64,000 bases of DNA from the NCBI RefSeq assembly GCF_030730865.1, contig NZ_JAVALZ010000003.1, positions 372,001-436,000 of the forward strand, in the 5' to 3' direction. The translations under genes and the position numbers were made by a program. This document shows positions 35,610-45,376 of this stretch, piece after piece. Position 1 is the stretch's first letter; every line of letters starts with the position of its first letter. The notes below the pieces were generated by a model, which worked only from the letters and a program-made list of their open reading frames with translations, was not told the DNA's origin and did not search any database. The stretch is from Uliginosibacterium sp. 31-16 (GTDB lineage Bacteria > Pseudomonadota > Gammaproteobacteria > Burkholderiales > Rhodocyclaceae).

Positions 35610-36359
35610 ATGGATATCATCAGCATCATTGGTCTGCTTGTCGGTTTGCTGGCGATCATTCTTGGTCAGATCCTGGAAGGTGGGCATCTCGGTTCGCTGG
35701 TGCAGCCCACAGCTCTCCTGATCGTTTTGGGCGGCACGACCGGTGCGGTGATGCTGCAGACTCCCTGGCGGATCTTCAAGCAGGGCATGCAGATGGCCGC
35801 ATGGGTGTTCAAGCCTCCCGTGCCACACATTCCGGATCTCATCGCCGAGGTGGTGGTCTGGAGCGGGATCGCACGTCGGGAGGGCTTGCTGGCGCTGGAG
35901 GCCCGTATCGACGCGCAGTCTGACCCTTTCGTACGCAAGGGGCTGCAGTTGCTGGTTGATGGGCTGGAGCCCGAGCGCATCCGCGATGTGCTGGAGGTCG
36001 AGATCAGCATCTGGGAAGCAGACATGAAGCAGGCCAGCAAAGTGTGGGAGGCTGCTGGGGGCTATGCTCCCACCATCGGGATCATTGGCGCGGTGATGGG
36101 CCTGATTCACGTGATGGAGAATCTTTCCGAACCCTCAAAGCTGGGCGCCGGGATTGCCGTGGCTTTCGTGGCAACGATCTATGGGGTCGGGTCGGCCAAT
36201 CTGGTTTTCCTGCCGATGGCCAAAAAGCTGCAGGTAACCCTGAGCCATCTCGTATCGGTGCGCGAGATGCTGGTGGACGGCTTGATCGGAATCGCGCGTG
36301 GCGATAATCCACGCCTCATCGAGAGTCGGCTGGAGAGCTACATTCTCGGTCCTCGCTGA
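35610..36359 (+). CDS. MotA-family stator protein (MotC-like)
   Basis: 249 residues with four membrane helices (about 4-20, 33-50, 148-166, 180-202) and the cytoplasmic loop between 2 and 3. The Pro-rich proton-path segment GGYAPTIGIIGAVMGLIHVME and the terminal LVSVREMLVDGL match MotA/MotC. The position after fliA is the one motC has in Pseudomonas-type clusters. In those clusters an OmpA-type motD follows; here no motD is present in the next 6 kb, so the MotB/D partner must be elsewhere. It begins 30 bases after fliA and is probably cotranscribed. Confidence 0.92.
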   Translation: MDIISIIGLLVGLLAIILGQILEGGHLGSLVQPTALLIVLGGTTGAVMLQTPWRIFKQGMQMAAWVFKPPVPHIPDLIAEVVVWSGIARREGLLALEARIDAQSDPFVRKGLQLLVDGLEPERIRDVLEVEISIWEADMKQASKVWEAAGGYAPTIGIIGAVMGLIHVMENLSEPSKLGAGIAVAFVATIYGVGSANLVFLPMAKKLQVTLSHLVSVREMLVDGLIGIARGDNPRLIESRLESYILGPR

Positions 36360-36635: not shown

Positions 36636-39098
36636 TTACTGGATATTGCTGGATGCCGGCAGCAGCTGTGGGCTGCCGTGTACGTTGGCGGCGCTGTCAT
36701 CCGTGTGCGGTGCTTCCAGCGGGAGGTGGATGATGAAGCAGGTGCCCGCGCCCGGGGAACTGACCAGCTGGATGTGGCCGCCCAGCAGGCTGGTGATGAT
36801 GTTGTAGACAATGTACAAGCCCAGCCCGCTGCCACCCTGACCCAGGCGGGTGGTGAAAAACGGATCGAACACCCGTCCTTGCTTTTCGATCGGGATGCCC
36901 GAGCCATTGTCGGAGAGCATGAGCACGACATCCTTGTCACCCAGGCGGCTGGCTGAAATCAGCAGACCTCCGGCCTGGCCCGGCTCGAAGGCATGCACCG
37001 TGGCATTGGTGACGATGTTGGTGATGACCTGATCCAGGGGCCCCGGATAACTGTTCAGAACGATGTTCTCGGGGATGTCGATGCTCAGGCTGTGCTGCTG
37101 TTTGCGCAGGGTCGGGCTGAGCGTGGCGACAACTTCCTGCACCGTTTGCAACAGGTCGAATTCGCGGCGCTGGGCACTGGTCTGATCGACTGCGACCTGC
37201 TTGAAGTTGCCTACCAGCGTGACGGCGCGATAGGCATTGCGTTCGATCAGCAGACAGCCCTCTTCACAGATCTGCATGAATTCGGTCAGGTCGGATTTTC
37301 GCAAGCTGCCGGCGTCGATGGCACGATTCATGTCGCGGACCTGATCACGCAGGGAGGTGGAAGCCACCAAAGCATTGCCCAGCGGGGTGTTCAACTCATG
37401 TGCCACGCCGGCAACCAGATTGCCCAGAGAGGCGAGCTTTTCGCTTTGCACCAATTGCTCCATGGCCTGCGATAACTGATCGTTGGACTGGCGCAAAGCA
37501 GTGGTGCGCTCAACGACACGTTGCTCCAGGGTCTGATTGAGCTGACGAATTTCGGCTTCGATGGCTTTCTGTGCCGAGATGTCCTTGGCGGTGCCACGGT
37601 AGCCGGTGAATTCTCCGTTCAAACCAAAAACCGGGTCGCCGCTGGCCAGCAGGTGCAAAAGTCGTCCATCCGGCATTTGCAGGGCGAGTTCGAAATCGCG
37701 GAATGGCTGGTGGGCTTCGGCTGTCTTCCGGTGTTGTTCCCAGGCTTCTTCGTAGCCCAGGTTGCGCGGGTTTTCCCAGGCCCGCAACCCCAGCATCAGG
37801 ACATTGCGTGCCAGCAATTCACCGGCTCGCTGACCGGAGAAGGCGGTGTACTGCAGCAACTCGTTCTGCTCCCAGAAAAAATCGCTGGACATGTCCGAAA
37901 GCGCCCGGAAGCGTCCCTCGCTGTCGCGCAGGGCGTGCTCGGCCAGGGTGCGCTGCATGGCACTGAGGCGAAAGTCCTTCAGGCCGCCGGCAAGCTGTCC
38001 CAGTTCGTTGTTGCCGACTTCAGGTACCGGATGTTCGAAATTACCCGAAGAGAACGCTTCCACGGTGCGCAGCAGCTCGGTCAGCGGGGTCTGGATGGAA
38101 TTGAACACCAGTGCGCCAAACATGAAAGTGACCGCTACGATCAACAGGCTGGTCACGACGGCGAACGTGTTGATCAATGTCAGCCGCTGCAGATAGCGGC
38201 TGCGCAAAGTGCCTTCTATTTCGGCATAGCGTTTATCGAGATTTGCTGCCGCATTTGAAATGGCTTGCTGGCTGGCCTCGATCCGGGTTTCCATGATCTG
38301 GTTGCGGATGGCATAGTTTCGCTGCAGGCTGCCCAGGCCCGAAATCATGGTGTGGACCTGTTTTTGCAGGTTTTTCAGTGCCTTGCGTTCAAATTCACTG
38401 GGGGCGAGCGTTTCGAGCAATGGGGCGAGCTGGGCCACGCGCTCCAGCGATCCCCGGGTACTCAGGCTGATGGTGGTTTCGCGTTTGGCATAGTAGGCAT
38501 TCATCTTCAGCAGTGAGTCGATGAAGGCATTGACAGCGACGACCGAGGCAGGGCCCAGCAGCGTCTGGCCTTTCTTCTGACTGGTGGCGCTGATCACCAC
38601 GGCCAGAAGTTCGGCTGCATGCCGGCTGGGTTCGATCAATTCATTCTGGTAGATCTTGTCGATGTCCTGATTGAGCTGTTTGAGCTCCCGGTAGCCGGTG
38701 ATGAAGTTTTGCAGGGACTGACGCAGCATCAGCAGGTTTTCGCTGTATTCGTTCCTGGATTTGTCCAGTTGCGAGAATTCCAGGAAGAGCTGCTCGGTCG
38801 CCTTGTCGATCTGTTGCTGCAATGCTTCATCCGAGGAGGTCAGATAGTTCTGGATGGCAACCTGCAGGCGCGCTGTTTCGGTGTTGAAGTGCTGCAGTTG
38901 ACGTTGCTGCAGGTTCAAACCCTCGATGGATTCAAAGTAGCTGTCTTTGAGGGTGCTGGCGAGCAGGCTCAGTGTCAGCAGCAGGATCAGCCCGGCTACG
39001 TTCAGCAGGGTCAGGTAGCGCAGGCGCTGCTGGATCGAGGTGGCGTTGAGCCAGTCATGAATGCGCTCCAGCAGGAGGGTTGCCGACGGACGGATCAT
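36636..39098 (-). CDS. Sensor histidine kinase with large helical periplasmic domain, HAMP and PAS
   Basis: 820 residues. Membrane helices at about 29-48 and 304-330 enclose roughly 255 periplasmic residues that look wholly helical (QQRQLQHFNTETARLQ, LRQSLQNFITGYRELKQLN), reminiscent of the TorS sensor domain that binds the periplasmic protein TorT. HAMP (about 331-383), one PAS domain (about 395-510), a short coiled coil, then HisKA with His567 in VAHELNTPLG and an ATPase domain (NIVTNATVHAF near 693, DNGSGIP, GGSGLGLYIV). No receiver domain and no neighbouring response regulator. Its ATG overlaps the stop of the TRAP-type binding-protein gene (ATGA), so it is the last gene of a receptor operon. 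Confidence 0.92.
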   Translation of the reverse strand: MIRPSATLLLERIHDWLNATSIQQRLRYLTLLNVAGLILLLTLSLLASTLKDSYFESIEGLNLQQRQLQHFNTETARLQVAIQNYLTSSDEALQQQIDKATEQLFLEFSQLDKSRNEYSENLLMLRQSLQNFITGYRELKQLNQDIDKIYQNELIEPSRHAAELLAVVISATSQKKGQTLLGPASVVAVNAFIDSLLKMNAYYAKRETTISLSTRGSLERVAQLAPLLETLAPSEFERKALKNLQKQVHTMISGLGSLQRNYAIRNQIMETRIEASQQAISNAAANLDKRYAEIEGTLRSRYLQRLTLINTFAVVTSLLIVAVTFMFGALVFNSIQTPLTELLRTVEAFSSGNFEHPVPEVGNNELGQLAGGLKDFRLSAMQRTLAEHALRDSEGRFRALSDMSSDFFWEQNELLQYTAFSGQRAGELLARNVLMLGLRAWENPRNLGYEEAWEQHRKTAEAHQPFRDFELALQMPDGRLLHLLASGDPVFGLNGEFTGYRGTAKDISAQKAIEAEIRQLNQTLEQRVVERTTALRQSNDQLSQAMEQLVQSEKLASLGNLVAGVAHELNTPLGNALVASTSLRDQVRDMNRAIDAGSLRKSDLTEFMQICEEGCLLIERNAYRAVTLVGNFKQVAVDQTSAQRREFDLLQTVQEVVATLSPTLRKQQHSLSIDIPENIVLNSYPGPLDQVITNIVTNATVHAFEPGQAGGLLISASRLGDKDVVLMLSDNGSGIPIEKQGRVFDPFFTTRLGQGGSGLGLYIVYNIITSLLGGHIQLVSSPGAGTCFIIHLPLEAPHTDDSAANVHGSPQLLPASSNIQ

Positions 39099-40099
39099 TT
39101 AATGGCCCGGATCCTCTTGATCAGGTTTTGCTGCTGTGGGTCGCTCGCATATCGGGCATAGACAGGCTGAACCGCGGCGGTGAATCGGGCTATCTGCTCC
39201 TTGGGCAATTCATTGAATTTCACGCCTGCCAGTTTGAGTGTGGCCTCTACGCGCTCTTCGCGCTGCTGCCACATGTCGCGCATGACAGCGACGGATTCAC
39301 GGGCCGCCTTGCGCAGCATTACCTGCTCGGACTGGGAGAGTTTGTCCCAGGAAATTTTTGACATTACCAGCACCTCGGGCGACATGGTGTGGCGGGTCAG
39401 ACTGAAAATCGGGGCGTATTTGTAATGCTCGGTGCTGCTGTAGGAGGGCAGATTGTTTTCTGCGGCCTCGACCAGATCATTGTTCAGTGCCCGCGCGGTC
39501 TGGGCAAATGGCAGGCGCACCGGGCGTGCCCCGAGCAGATCAAAGACCATGAGTGACATTTCAGAGGGTTGTACGCGGATGTTCAGATCTTTCATGTCTT
39601 CGAGTTTCAGAATCGGCTTCTTTACCGTGTAAATACTCCGGATGCCTGCGTCGTAATAAGCCAGACCGATCAGTCCCTTGCTGGCGAGCGAGTCGAGTAC
39701 TTCCTGACCAATCGGGCCATCCAGTACCTTGTGCAGATGCTCGGTGTCGCGGAACAGATAGGGCAGGGAGAATACCCGGCTGAGTGGAGCTATCGAGTCC
39801 AGCGCCTGAATGCTGACCCGGTTCATGTCCAGCTCGCCTGATTGCACGAGTTGCAGCAAGGGGCCTTCGTCGCCAAGCAGACCAGAGGAGAAGACGCGGA
39901 TGCCCAGCTTGCGACCGGACGTTTTCTGAATCTGCTGATTCATGAATTGCACGGCCTGTACTGTCGGATAATCGTCCGGATGTACATCCGCTGAGCGCAA
40001 GGTGCGCATTCCATCCGTCGTATCGATGGCTCCCGCGTTGCCTGCCAGCAGTGCCAGTATTGTGACCATCCCGATCAGGATTCTTGTGCCTCTGGTCAT
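39095..40099 (-). CDS. TRAP-type periplasmic solute-binding protein (DctP family)
   Basis: 334 residues with a signal peptide (about 1-24, cut after GNAGA). DctP-type features: VQFMNQQIQKTSGRKLGIRVF, SGLLGDEGPLLQLVQSGELDM, and Arg175 in NIRVQPSEM, the position of the conserved Arg that holds a carboxylate ligand. TRAP transporters need DctQ and DctM membrane proteins; neither is present here. Instead the gene overlaps the upstream amino-acid-binding-type gene and the downstream sensor kinase by 4 bases each. This suggests it is a receptor that presents an organic acid to the kinase. Ligand unknown. Confidence 0.92.
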   Translation of the reverse strand: MTRGTRILIGMVTILALLAGNAGAIDTTDGMRTLRSADVHPDDYPTVQAVQFMNQQIQKTSGRKLGIRVFSSGLLGDEGPLLQLVQSGELDMNRVSIQALDSIAPLSRVFSLPYLFRDTEHLHKVLDGPIGQEVLDSLASKGLIGLAYYDAGIRSIYTVKKPILKLEDMKDLNIRVQPSEMSLMVFDLLGARPVRLPFAQTARALNNDLVEAAENNLPSYSSTEHYKYAPIFSLTRHTMSPEVLVMSKISWDKLSQSEQVMLRKAARESVAVMRDMWQQREERVEATLKLAGVKFNELPKEQIARFTAAVQPVYARYASDPQQQNLIKRIRAIK

Positions 40100-40923
40100 G
40101 GGTTTCCCCTTTCTGCCTGACGTGGTTTTGCGTTGGGCCGCAGCTCGGGCGGCAAATCACGTCCGTGATATCTGCGGTAAATGTCATTGAGCCGTCCGTT
40201 GCGCAGATTTTCGACAACCCAGTCGCTGATCCACGCTCGCAAGGCTTTCTCGGATCTGGGGATGCCAATGGCCAGCTCAAACTCTTTTTGCACAAACTTC
40301 TCCTCGAATGGAGGGTTTGCCCCTTGACGGTTTATTTCGTCGATGACGGCCTGCTGACTGGAGAGCAGATCCAGCTTGCCTGCAACAGCAGCCTTGATGA
40401 GCAAGGCATCGTCGTCAAACGGCACCATTATGGCATCTGGCGCATGCTGCTCTATCTGTGCTGCATTGGATGTCAGGCGTGTGACGCCGATTCGCAGATT
40501 TGCCAGATCGGCGTAGCCAGTTATCTTCAGCGAGGGGTGCGCGGCGACAACGGTAAAGAGTTTGGCATATGGCGGTGAAAAGCTGATTATCCTCTCGCGT
40601 TCCGGAGTGATCGAAAGACTCGAGATCACGATATCAGCGCTGCCGGTTTCAAGGGTTTTGAGCCGACCGGCATTGCTGGTGCGGACGATCTCCAGTCTTA
40701 CGCCCAGATCACGTGCCAATATCCCTGCCGTATCGACATCCGAACCGCGCAGCTCCTGTTTTGCGTCCAGATAGCTGAAGCGGGGAACGCCAATCGCGAT
40801 TCCGACCCGTAATCTGCCCTGGTTTCGGATGCTGGCAAGATCTGCCTGTGCCGCCCCGCACAGGCAGAAAAGCAGAGAGCCAAGTCCCAGAGTACGGATC
40901 AGGGCGGTCGCCAGAACCTTCAT
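40096..40923 (-). CDS. Periplasmic family-3 solute-binding protein, receptor 3 of operon
   Basis: 275 residues; signal peptide to about residue 27 (GAAQA/DLASI). SBP_bac_3 signatures: GRLRVGIAIGVPRFSYLD, GSDVDTAGILARDLGV and LSITPERERIISFSPPYA. The C-terminal helix NGRLNDIYRRYHGRDLP is nearly the same in all three paralogues of this operon. Proteins of this family bind amino acids or small amines, usually for ABC importers, but no permease or ATPase gene is here. Start and stop overlap the neighbouring genes by 4 bases (ATGA), giving strong coupling. Confidence 0.92.
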   Translation of the reverse strand: MKVLATALIRTLGLGSLLFCLCGAAQADLASIRNQGRLRVGIAIGVPRFSYLDAKQELRGSDVDTAGILARDLGVRLEIVRTSNAGRLKTLETGSADIVISSLSITPERERIISFSPPYAKLFTVVAAHPSLKITGYADLANLRIGVTRLTSNAAQIEQHAPDAIMVPFDDDALLIKAAVAGKLDLLSSQQAVIDEINRQGANPPFEEKFVQKEFELAIGIPRSEKALRAWISDWVVENLRNGRLNDIYRRYHGRDLPPELRPNAKPRQAERGNP

Positions 40924-41720
40924 TTGCCCTCCGCGGTAGTCGTGGGCGGAATGATTGTGCCCGGCAATTTTTGACCATGATGCCTGCGGTAAATTTCTCC
41001 TAGACTGTTGTCGCGCAAGCGGCTGACGACCCAGTTGTTAACCCATTCACGCAGACTCTTTTCGCCCTTGGGCATGCCAACGGCTACGTCGAACTCCATC
41101 TGGGTGAACTGGACGATCAAAGGGCGTTTCGGGTTCATCCGGTTGGTGTTGATCACCACGCTTTCCGGGGCCGTCATGATTTCAAATTCGTTGGATATGT
41201 AACCCATCCCCAGTTTGTCATTTTCGGGGTATTCGACCACTTTGCTGTTTGGGGCGTTTTTCCGCAAATGAGCCAGGTTGGAACTGGCAGCAAGTGCTCC
41301 GATAGTCTTGTTTGACAGGTCGAGCATTGAGGACAGCTTGTGGGGGTGAGGTGCTGCGATCACCACCGCGATGCGTGCGTAGGGGACAGAAAAGGCAATC
41401 AGACGTTCGCGTTCAGGTGTGATCGACAATGCCGAGACCACCAAATCGGCCTGTTGCTCTTGCAAAACCGAGATTCGTTCCGAATTGGTAATGCGCACGA
41501 TCTGCAGTCTTACACCAAGATCCCGAGCCAGCAGGTTTGCCGTTTCCACGTCCGATCCGACCAGTTCCTTGTGGCCATTCTCGAAATTGAAAGGAGGGAC
41601 TGCTCCCGCTATCGCAATGCGGACCGTACCTGCATGACGGATGCGGGAAAGCTGGTCTGCATTGGCTGGCAGGCTTGTCAGCAGAGCCAGCCCCGTCAGC
41701 AGGATTGTTCTCGGATGCAT
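40920..41720 (-). CDS. Periplasmic family-3 solute-binding protein, receptor 2 of operon
   Basis: I start at ATG 41720 (MHPRTILLTGLALLTSLPANA), which gives a clean signal peptide; the longer frame to 41897 has 59 non-signal residues in front. 266 residues. Family-3 motifs: GTVRIAIAGAVPPFNF, GSDVETANLLARDLGV, LSITPERERLIAFSVPYA, and C-terminal LGEIYRRHHGQKLP. It is a paralogue of its two neighbours. A 184-base gap separates it from receptor 1, whereas its stop overlaps the receptor 3 start. An internal promoter in the gap is possible but none was recognised. Confidence 0.9.
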   Translation of the reverse strand: MHPRTILLTGLALLTSLPANADQLSRIRHAGTVRIAIAGAVPPFNFENGHKELVGSDVETANLLARDLGVRLQIVRITNSERISVLQEQQADLVVSALSITPERERLIAFSVPYARIAVVIAAPHPHKLSSMLDLSNKTIGALAASSNLAHLRKNAPNSKVVEYPENDKLGMGYISNEFEIMTAPESVVINTNRMNPKRPLIVQFTQMEFDVAVGMPKGEKSLREWVNNWVVSRLRDNSLGEIYRRHHGQKLPGTIIPPTTTAEGK

Positions 41721-41904
41721 GCGGATAACTCTACGAACTCTTTCAATGCCCGCTCGTTCCGCGGCGGTGCGAGGCGGATGAAGCGTGTCTGCGGTTTTTT
41801 CAGAAGATTTGGCTGGCTTCAGCACTGATGCGGTGGACTGTTTCAAGCTTGCCTGCGGGGGCTGATGCGATGGTGCGGTGCGCCGGTGAAATTGCATCAG
41901 AGGT

Positions 41905-42714
41905 TTACCGCGGAGTGACTATCTTGGGCAGAACAGATTCGGGCAGATCATGTCCGTGGTGACGGCGGAAAACTTCATTCAGCTTGCCATTAGCCAGATT
42001 GGTGACAACCCAGTTGTTGATCCACTCACGAAGCGGGCGTTCGCTTTTGCGCATGCCGATGGCGATCTGATATTCACGCTGGATGAATTTCGCTTCCAGA
42101 CGGCGATCTGTCACCATGTTGTTGATTTCCTTCAGGGTTGCATGCTGGCAGGAAATGATGTCGAACTGACGCTTCAGATAGCCTTCGATCAGGCTGCGCT
42201 CGTCTTCGTATTCAACAATCTCTACCCCGCTGGTGTGCTGTTTGAGTAGCGTGCCGTTTGAGGTGTTTCTCCCGACACCGACTTTTTTGCCGCGCAGATC
42301 CATGTAGCTGGTGATCTGGTACTGGCGGGGAGCTCCTACGATCAATGCGATGCTGGAGTAGGGGACGGAAAATGAGATGAGCTGTTCGCGTTCGGGCGTG
42401 ATCGACAGGGCCGAGATGATCAGGTCGGCTTTTTTCGATACCATGGTTTCAATGCGGTCAGCGTTGGCGACGAACACGAACTCCGGTGTGACGCCAAGAT
42501 CCTTGGCCAGCAATCGGGATGTGTCTACGTCAGAACCGACGAATCCGGCTTTCGGTTCGGTCACGCTGAAGCTGGGGAGCCCATTGATGATGGCAATGCG
42601 CAGTTTGCCGGCGGCCTTGATGTCCGCCAGCTGATCGGCACGCGCCAGATGCGGCATGGTGCAGGCACACAGTGCCAGTCCCCATGTGACAAGACTTACC
42701 GCAAGCGTTTTCAT
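41905..42714 (-). CDS. Periplasmic family-3 solute-binding protein, receptor 1 of operon
   Basis: 269 residues from ATG 42714, chosen because a strong AAGGAGG lies eight bases upstream; the frame to 42756 is not supported. Signal peptide to about residue 27 (HLARA/DQLAD). Family-3 motifs: GKLRIAIINGLPSFSV, GSDVDTSRLLAKDLGV, LSITPEREQLISFSVPYS, and LNEVFRRHHGHDLP at the end. It is the first gene of the receptor operon, transcribed away from pyrG. Sequence differences in the ligand cleft among the three receptors suggest different ligands. Confidence 0.92.
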   Translation of the reverse strand: MKTLAVSLVTWGLALCACTMPHLARADQLADIKAAGKLRIAIINGLPSFSVTEPKAGFVGSDVDTSRLLAKDLGVTPEFVFVANADRIETMVSKKADLIISALSITPEREQLISFSVPYSSIALIVGAPRQYQITSYMDLRGKKVGVGRNTSNGTLLKQHTSGVEIVEYEDERSLIEGYLKRQFDIISCQHATLKEINNMVTDRRLEAKFIQREYQIAIGMRKSERPLREWINNWVVTNLANGKLNEVFRRHHGHDLPESVLPKIVTPR

Positions 42715-42736
42715 TAGCCAGCCTCCTTTGCGGGCA

Positions 42737-42858: not shown

Positions 42859-45376
<2,518 letters not shown>

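Follow-up and report, generated by a model that had tools for sequence, protein, structure and literature searches.

A conserved operon that joins genes for several soluble binding proteins to one sensor kinase gene in Uliginosibacterium and Zoogloea

Introduction

In the TorT-TorS systems of Escherichia coli and Vibrio, a kinase whose periplasmic domain is large and helical is encoded next to a soluble receptor. The kinase, TorS, is of the hybrid type, and the single receptor, TorT, belongs to a binding-protein class other than the two treated below. In BvgS and EvgS, several SBP_bac_3-type modules feed one kinase, to which they are fused. The gene for the binding protein of the chemoreceptor CtpL is not known to lie in the CtpL operon. 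Here we analyze an operon (36636-42714) from the 3.9 Mb genome of the betaproteobacterium Uliginosibacterium sp. 31-16 that encodes four soluble binding proteins of two unrelated families together with one sensor histidine kinase. It lies in a stretch of 64,000 nucleotides which was analyzed as a whole and is referred to as the window.

About ten or eleven systems of a solute-binding protein (SBP) and a kinase have been characterized, each reported as a pair (PMC9602780, PMC11113362). Adjacent SBP and kinase genes proved functionally linked in 10 of 11 characterized couples, as summarized in one of them (PMC11113362). BctC of Bordetella pertussis is described as a transporter-type binding protein that signals via the kinase of BctDE (PMC5812351, PMC9602780). 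In the literature on the organisms treated here in connection with SBPs and kinases, no operon of this kind was found, judged by titles and abstract openings.

Layout of the operon and comparison with described systems

The genes of the operon are, in the order in which they are read:

42722-42728, minus strand: AAGGAGG ribosome-binding site ahead of SBP3-A, seen in the sequence
41905-42714, minus strand: SBP3-A, secreted SBP_bac_3 protein, 269 amino acids (Pfam PF00497, E 5.9e-24)
40920-41720, minus strand: SBP3-B, secreted SBP_bac_3 protein, 266 amino acids from the likelier start (PF00497, E 8.4e-28)
40096-40923, minus strand: SBP3-C, secreted SBP_bac_3 protein, 275 amino acids (PF00497, E 7.8e-27)
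39095-40099, minus strand: DctP-type binding protein of the tripartite ATP-independent periplasmic (TRAP) class, 334 amino acids (Pfam PF03480, E 6.1e-75)
36636-39098, minus strand: sensor histidine kinase, 820 amino acids (HATPase_c 1.6e-24, HAMP 2.1e-8)

Three SBP_bac_3 proteins, a DctP and an 820-residue kinase, encoded on one strand and coupled by ATGA, had been proposed in the initial annotation, and reading frames, Pfam matches, and the junctions confirm this. SBP3-A starts with the ATG after AAGGAGG, and three 4-base ATGA overlaps couple the last four genes, the starts being at 40923 (SBP3-C), 40099 (DctP), and 39098 (kinase). The open frame of SBP3-B extends to 41897 (as listed, 40920-41897), and the internal ATG at 41720 is the likelier start because the signal peptide begins there. 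Each of the four binding proteins has a Sec-type signal peptide at its start, as judged by eye and by hydropathy; that of SBP3-A, read from the sequence, ends with ARA ahead of DQ, and the signal region of SBP3-B has no hydropathy peak above the threshold.

The operon is flanked by a MotA-type gene (35610-36359, plus strand) and by pyrG (42859-44544, plus strand). Between these two, no gene for a permease, an ATPase, DctQ, or DctM is present, and no response regulator gene adjoins the kinase; both absences had been noted at the outset. The G+C content is 0.555-0.562 at 38-42 kb, in the operon, versus 0.60-0.67 across much of the window and upstream, which we record with horizontal gain in mind. 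A promoter and terminator scan of the region gave no excess over the shuffled expectation.

The operon resembles TorT-TorS in that genes for soluble receptors stand in one operon with a kinase gene, joined here by the three overlaps. Unlike TorS, the kinase has no C-terminal receiver in a Pfam scan, and it is accompanied by four receptors from the SBP_bac_3 and DctP families. TorS proper was rejected as an identification, given the missing receiver and a score of 86 bits with the NCBIfam TorS model, versus a cut-off of 676.5. As with BctC, transporter-type binding proteins are paired with a kinase, signaling being here a proposal drawn from the genes. Unlike the operon receptors, BctC works in addition with a BctBA permease of its own, and its regulator is encoded with the BctDE kinase; BctC is moreover of the tripartite tricarboxylate transporter (TTT) type, while the DctP is of the TRAP type. 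By its predicted fold, the periplasmic domain of the kinase is also like the helical bimodular domain which CtpL uses for binding-protein-mediated sensing (PMC6321045). Unlike the operon kinase, CtpL is a chemoreceptor and is served by one binding protein. Unlike the modules of BvgS and EvgS, the SBPs of the operon are separate secreted proteins from separate genes.

Conservation of the receptor-kinase linkage

A search that used the sensor half of this protein as query gave eight kinase loci (n=8): the window, the metagenome-assembled genome (MAG) CTSoil_126, Uliginosibacterium aquaticum (G011), the genome G586, Zoogloea ramigera, two Zoogloea MAGs, and Candidatus Dactylopiibacterium carminicum (G122, hereafter Dactylopiibacterium); U. 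aquaticum and Dactylopiibacterium are included in the genus. The automatic gene picker uses rough composition weights and missed or misplaced genes, among them SBP3-B of U. aquaticum and the operon at locus L159, and neighboring genes were rechecked via an all-frame listing or phmmer. The DctP and kinase genes share the 4-base overlap in seven of the eight loci (all but Dactylopiibacterium), a recurrence that is more than chance.

Two or three SBP3 genes are present in the six loci with a long enough contig. Their order is A-B-C in the window and in U. aquaticum and C-B in the three Zoogloea loci. CTSoil_126 holds A-B, with A cut by the contig end and genes further upstream outside the contig; the G586 contig begins just before DctP, so that its SBP3 region is outside the contig. 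Orthologues of SBP3-B occur in five other loci, which is every locus with a contig reaching that far (6/6 including the window), those of SBP3-C in four others, and those of SBP3-A in U. aquaticum and CTSoil_126. The Zoogloea operons are found at a different chromosomal place with different neighbor genes, giving two genomic locations in all.

A tree was computed from 13 operon SBP3s (the truncated A of CTSoil_126 was left out) and seven other SBP3-like proteins of the host genome. Ultrafast bootstrap support was 100 for A, 98 for B, 99 for C, and 100 for the operon SBP3s versus the seven host proteins. A, B, and C are thus old paralogues, each kept separately.

In the genus, five of eight genomes have the kinase and four of eight the DctP orthologue (at least 58% identity); a DctP orthologue without the kinase was not seen in this comparison. 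The family sample has such orthologues in 4 of 199 genomes (the next match being at 43%), and the host genome was the sole match in the order (1/399) and class (1/369) samples, in which no instance of the operon outside the family was found. The earlier proposal had been staked on a linkage between receptors and kinase in related genomes, and this linkage is conserved according to the gene-order search and the overlap in 7/8 loci. That relatives keep the grouping points to a sensor with several soluble receptors as its inputs.

In the three Zoogloea loci, a protein of about 570-590 amino acids that is like ABC (ATP-binding cassette) transporters is encoded after the kinase on the same strand (L063:12512-14266, L064:6768-8537, L065:9052-10761). 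We take it, by eye, to be SbmA/YddA-like.

The kinase loci found also bear on a narrower explanation, by which DctP alone feeds the kinase and the SBP3s serve other receptors (e.g., chemoreceptors) or scavenge ligands. DctP adjoins the kinase in 7/7 receptor-bearing loci while the SBP3 set varies, and locus L159 has a DctP-kinase pair without any SBP3. However, SBP3-B persists in all six loci with a sufficiently long contig, and the separate clades of B and C predate the divergence from Zoogloea. We consider this explanation unlikely.

Permeases elsewhere in the genome

Alternatively, the receptors might deliver their ligands in trans to distant permeases, with the kinase being a mere neighbor or regulating their synthesis. 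ABC permeases can share SBPs, which counts for this possibility. In the host genome, ten places encode amino-acid-type permeases (TIGR01726); they form six clusters, and every cluster contains an SBP_bac_3 from outside the operon. It is not unusual in this genome for an SBP_bac_3 gene to lack a permease: only 6 of its 13 SBP_bac_3 places accompany an amino-acid-type ABC permease. Six of the seven DctM genes adjoin a DctP. The remaining case is a DctQ gene with one for a 581-residue DctM (L101, G000:C3, ~342.7-345.0 kb; DctM at G000:C3:343330), around which no DctP is encoded in the 18 kb read. The operon DctP may therefore have a partner in trans. The ten amino-acid-type places and 6/7 DctM genes favor the initial proposal of a sensor, and the orphan DctQM pair counts against it. 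Against transport, the conserved linkage is to the kinase and none is to a permease, the second genomic location included, and the other permeases have other binding proteins alongside; we judge it improbable.

An amino-acid ABC importer was rejected as an identity of the operon, there being no permease near its SBPs and the permeases elsewhere mostly having SBPs of their own. The same applies to a TRAP transporter: DctP has no DctQ or DctM beside it, and DctM genes elsewhere mostly have their own DctP.

The kinase and its periplasmic domain

The kinase is intact, with H567 and its N, G1, F, and G2 boxes invariant in the eight orthologues. Its PAS domain match is below the Pfam cut-off. The sensor part is:

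38175-38948, minus strand: periplasmic domain of the kinase, residues 51-308, predicted to be all-helical and bimodular (hydropathy, AlphaFold2, Foldseek)

An AlphaFold2 model made from eight sequences is all-helical, with a mean predicted local distance difference test (pLDDT) of 80.4 and a predicted template modeling score (pTM) of 0.62. Ligand domains of McpS, which are of the helical bimodular (HBM) type and among the best matches hold malate or succinate, head the Foldseek list (E 2.0e-3 to 8.2e-3, target TM-score 0.59-0.75). PilJ is also listed, as is TorS (3i9y: E 5.2e-3, target TM-score 0.60), and the TorS-TorT complexes 3o1h/3o1i follow at E 1.0e-2 and 1.9e-2 (TM-score 0.49 and 0.50). 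The entry 2yfa is among the matches. Long coiled coils with a high root-mean-square deviation are interspersed in the list. A sensor profile search against solved sequences gave coiled-coil-like chance matches alone (best E 0.0093). The predicted sensor fold thus has a weak but specific likeness to McpS (HBM) and TorS, at Foldseek E-values of 2e-3 to 2e-2 only, and the helical TorS-like domain that had been predicted is supported, with TorS among the closest specific solved folds. HBM domains are known to bind ligands directly, and CtpL is the case of sensing mediated by a binding protein (PMC6321045).

The Dactylopiibacterium locus allows a comparison. There, pyrG, the kinase gene, and the motA-type gene are neighbors; the receptor genes are gone and the kinase frame is intact. 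Its genome has no SBP3-B relative above 32% identity and no DctP above 43%. We counted changes at positions invariant in reference kinases, comparing the periplasmic part (51-308) with the cytoplasmic part (333-800). Against six receptor-linked kinases, the Dactylopiibacterium kinase is changed at 30/117 periplasmic and 14/254 cytoplasmic positions (ratio 4.65, Fisher P 1.2e-7). For the divergent G586 kinase, which keeps its DctP, the values versus the same six are 22/117 and 29/254 (ratio 1.65, P 0.073). As controls against five references, U. aquaticum gave 8/125 and 13/267 (ratio 1.3, P 0.63), for which set Dactylopiibacterium gave 34/125 and 19/267 (ratio 3.8), and the window kinase gave 5/122 and 6/260 (P 0.34). 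The periplasmic domain evolves faster generally and most clearly where the receptors are gone, a result that is suggestive and no proof because it comes from one lineage.

The change is uneven along the domain, the most changed helix being:

38406-38483, minus strand: helix alpha5, residues 206-231, candidate docking surface, most changed helix in the receptor-less kinase

In alpha5, 9/16 invariant positions are changed in Dactylopiibacterium versus 3/16 in G586, and in alpha6C 6/16 versus 2/16. The trend is reversed in alpha4 (3/14 versus 5/14) and alpha6N (3/20 versus 6/20).

By another explanation, a small ligand would bind the helical bimodular domain of the kinase itself, in the manner of McpS, the receptor genes being its targets or unrelated. 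This accords with the malate- or succinate-bearing McpS domains as best Foldseek matches and with the intact receptor-less frame in Dactylopiibacterium, but it is improbable, as the periplasmic domain of that kinase has changed disproportionately and direct sensing does not need a translationally coupled layout in one operon.

Candidate ligands

R154, R175, and N215 of DctP are invariant in the four orthologues and correspond, by spacing and by alignment to 4n8y, to the two arginines and the asparagine described for the pocket of hexuronate binders (PMC7660916). The best solved match of DctP is 4n8y, and 4n8y and 4x8r are both within the best five matches by distinct molecule; the former is given as holding galacturonate and the latter glucuronate (PMC11668362). 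At the sequence level, the DctP thus has the residues of a hexuronate binder, and hexuronates such as galacturonate or glucuronate are its most likely ligands.

Amino-acid binders of the SBP_bac_3 family use an arginine for the alpha-carboxylate and an aspartate for the alpha-amino group. In 14/14 operon SBP3s, the TPER motif retains its arginine. The aspartate column holds Q, P, or T in all 14, and D in 5/6 permease-linked SBPs of the host genome. Because the arginine is kept while the aspartate is replaced, other carboxylates, not necessarily alpha-amino acids, are the most likely SBP3 ligands. This retains a carboxylate and weakens the amino acids that had first been envisaged. SBP3-C matches the BvgS structure 4q0c at 1.4e-8.

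Related kinases and the putative output

The 29 best-scoring non-orthologous kinases, by catalytic domain, were collected from a family sample of 150 genomes. Thirteen adjoin, or are one gene from, a receiver-DUF3369-GGDEF-EAL protein, and two are placed likewise with respect to a receiver-HD-GYP-like protein. The receiver model was based on four sequences and could overlook receivers of other types; a 1226-residue receiver-bearing protein at L155 was left out of the count. Two host-genome kinases (L052, L054) likewise sit beside DUF3369 regulators, and in the 392,518 bases read (at most 10% of the genome) the two DUF3369 regulators each adjoin their own kinase, with no orphan regulator found. 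In three of the 15 cases a binding-protein gene separates the regulator from the related kinase. It encodes a DctP at L159 and a Peripla_BP_6 protein at L173:2179-3351 and L175:2938-4050, where the regulator is of the receiver-DUF3369-EAL type and the genes overlap. Because 15/29 related kinases adjoin such regulators, the output of the operon kinase is probably of the cyclic di-GMP (c-di-GMP) type, via a response regulator encoded elsewhere.

Proposed mechanism

We propose that the kinase is co-produced with its four neighbors, the binding proteins exported via Sec, and that these, DctP at least, would dock as soluble receptors on the helical, bimodular domain that the kinase has in the periplasm. 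Depending on whether a receptor carries ligand, the helices of this domain would shift, and the HAMP, PAS, and kinase modules would relay the signal to a response regulator whose gene lies elsewhere. DctP would most likely report hexuronates (galacturonate, glucuronate) and the three SBP3s other carboxylates, and the output is most likely a DUF3369-type regulator acting on c-di-GMP. Docking, ligands, use by all four receptors, and output are the inferred parts of this explanation. We assign a probability of roughly 0.6 to a receptor-fed two-component sensor that is TorT-TorS-like, has several unrelated soluble inputs with hexuronate and carboxylate ligands, and acts on c-di-GMP.

A more far-reaching version is tentative. 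In it, a TorS/HBM-type kinase would integrate four soluble receptors of two unrelated families, one of them TRAP, as a pure sensor without a dedicated transporter, and would translate the periplasmic pool of carboxylates, sugar acids among them, into c-di-GMP signaling. It would be part of a wider habit of the family, in which kinases of the same catalytic group go with DUF3369 regulators and with loose receptors of the DctP or Peripla_BP_6 type.

Several results weigh against the receptor-fed sensor. The SBP3 set is variable, A being missing in the three Zoogloea loci and C in CTSoil_126, and the orphan DctQM pair has no DctP in the 18 kb read. The Foldseek search against the PDB gave no match at E 0.001 or better, and the Pfam scan of the kinase gave no sensor domain above cut-off. 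The Dactylopiibacterium kinase persists with no receptor, and the relaxation result rests on this single host-associated lineage. The direct contrast of Dactylopiibacterium reaches only P 0.023 versus G586 and P 0.067 versus U. aquaticum, and G586, which has kept DctP, is itself changed at 22 periplasmic positions. With four references, a periplasmic excess appears in every target (1.64-1.92 for the window, CTSoil_126, and G586; 2.96 for Dactylopiibacterium). Near 14 of the 29 related kinases, neither a DUF3369 nor an HD-GYP-like regulator was seen. Finally, adjacency of SBP and kinase genes can mislead: for two Pseudomonas aeruginosa kinases encoded near SBP genes, no binding was observed (PMC11113362).

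Other receptor-output gene arrangements

A chemoreceptor signaling domain fused to a complete C-terminal DctP is encoded by seven distinct genes in five genomes (L049:7207-9321 and L050:6920-9142, on G000:C2 and G000:C1; also L022, L029/L178, L030, L035, and L037). The DctP part would be cytoplasmic because hydrophobic segments precede the chemoreceptor domain only. A second, secreted-looking DctP gene follows the fusion gene in L049, L050, and L029/L178. A literature search, judged by titles, found nothing naming such a fusion. At L055:10023-10967 (G000:C3, ~191-192 kb), a 314-residue DctP without a signal peptide is encoded between PAS kinases of 660 and 427 residues, the genes overlapping by 4 bases. 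This arrangement suggests a further DctP sensor in the cytoplasm. A small SBP_bac_3-like protein adjoins a CHASE/PAS/GGDEF-looking protein at L048:12890-15635 (G000:C4), possibly a receptor-output pair.

Conclusions

A conserved operon in which one kinase stands beside several soluble receptors of unrelated kinds would let the summing of different inputs by a single sensor be studied directly. The receptor-less kinase of Dactylopiibacterium is a natural comparison and directs attention to alpha5 as a candidate docking surface.

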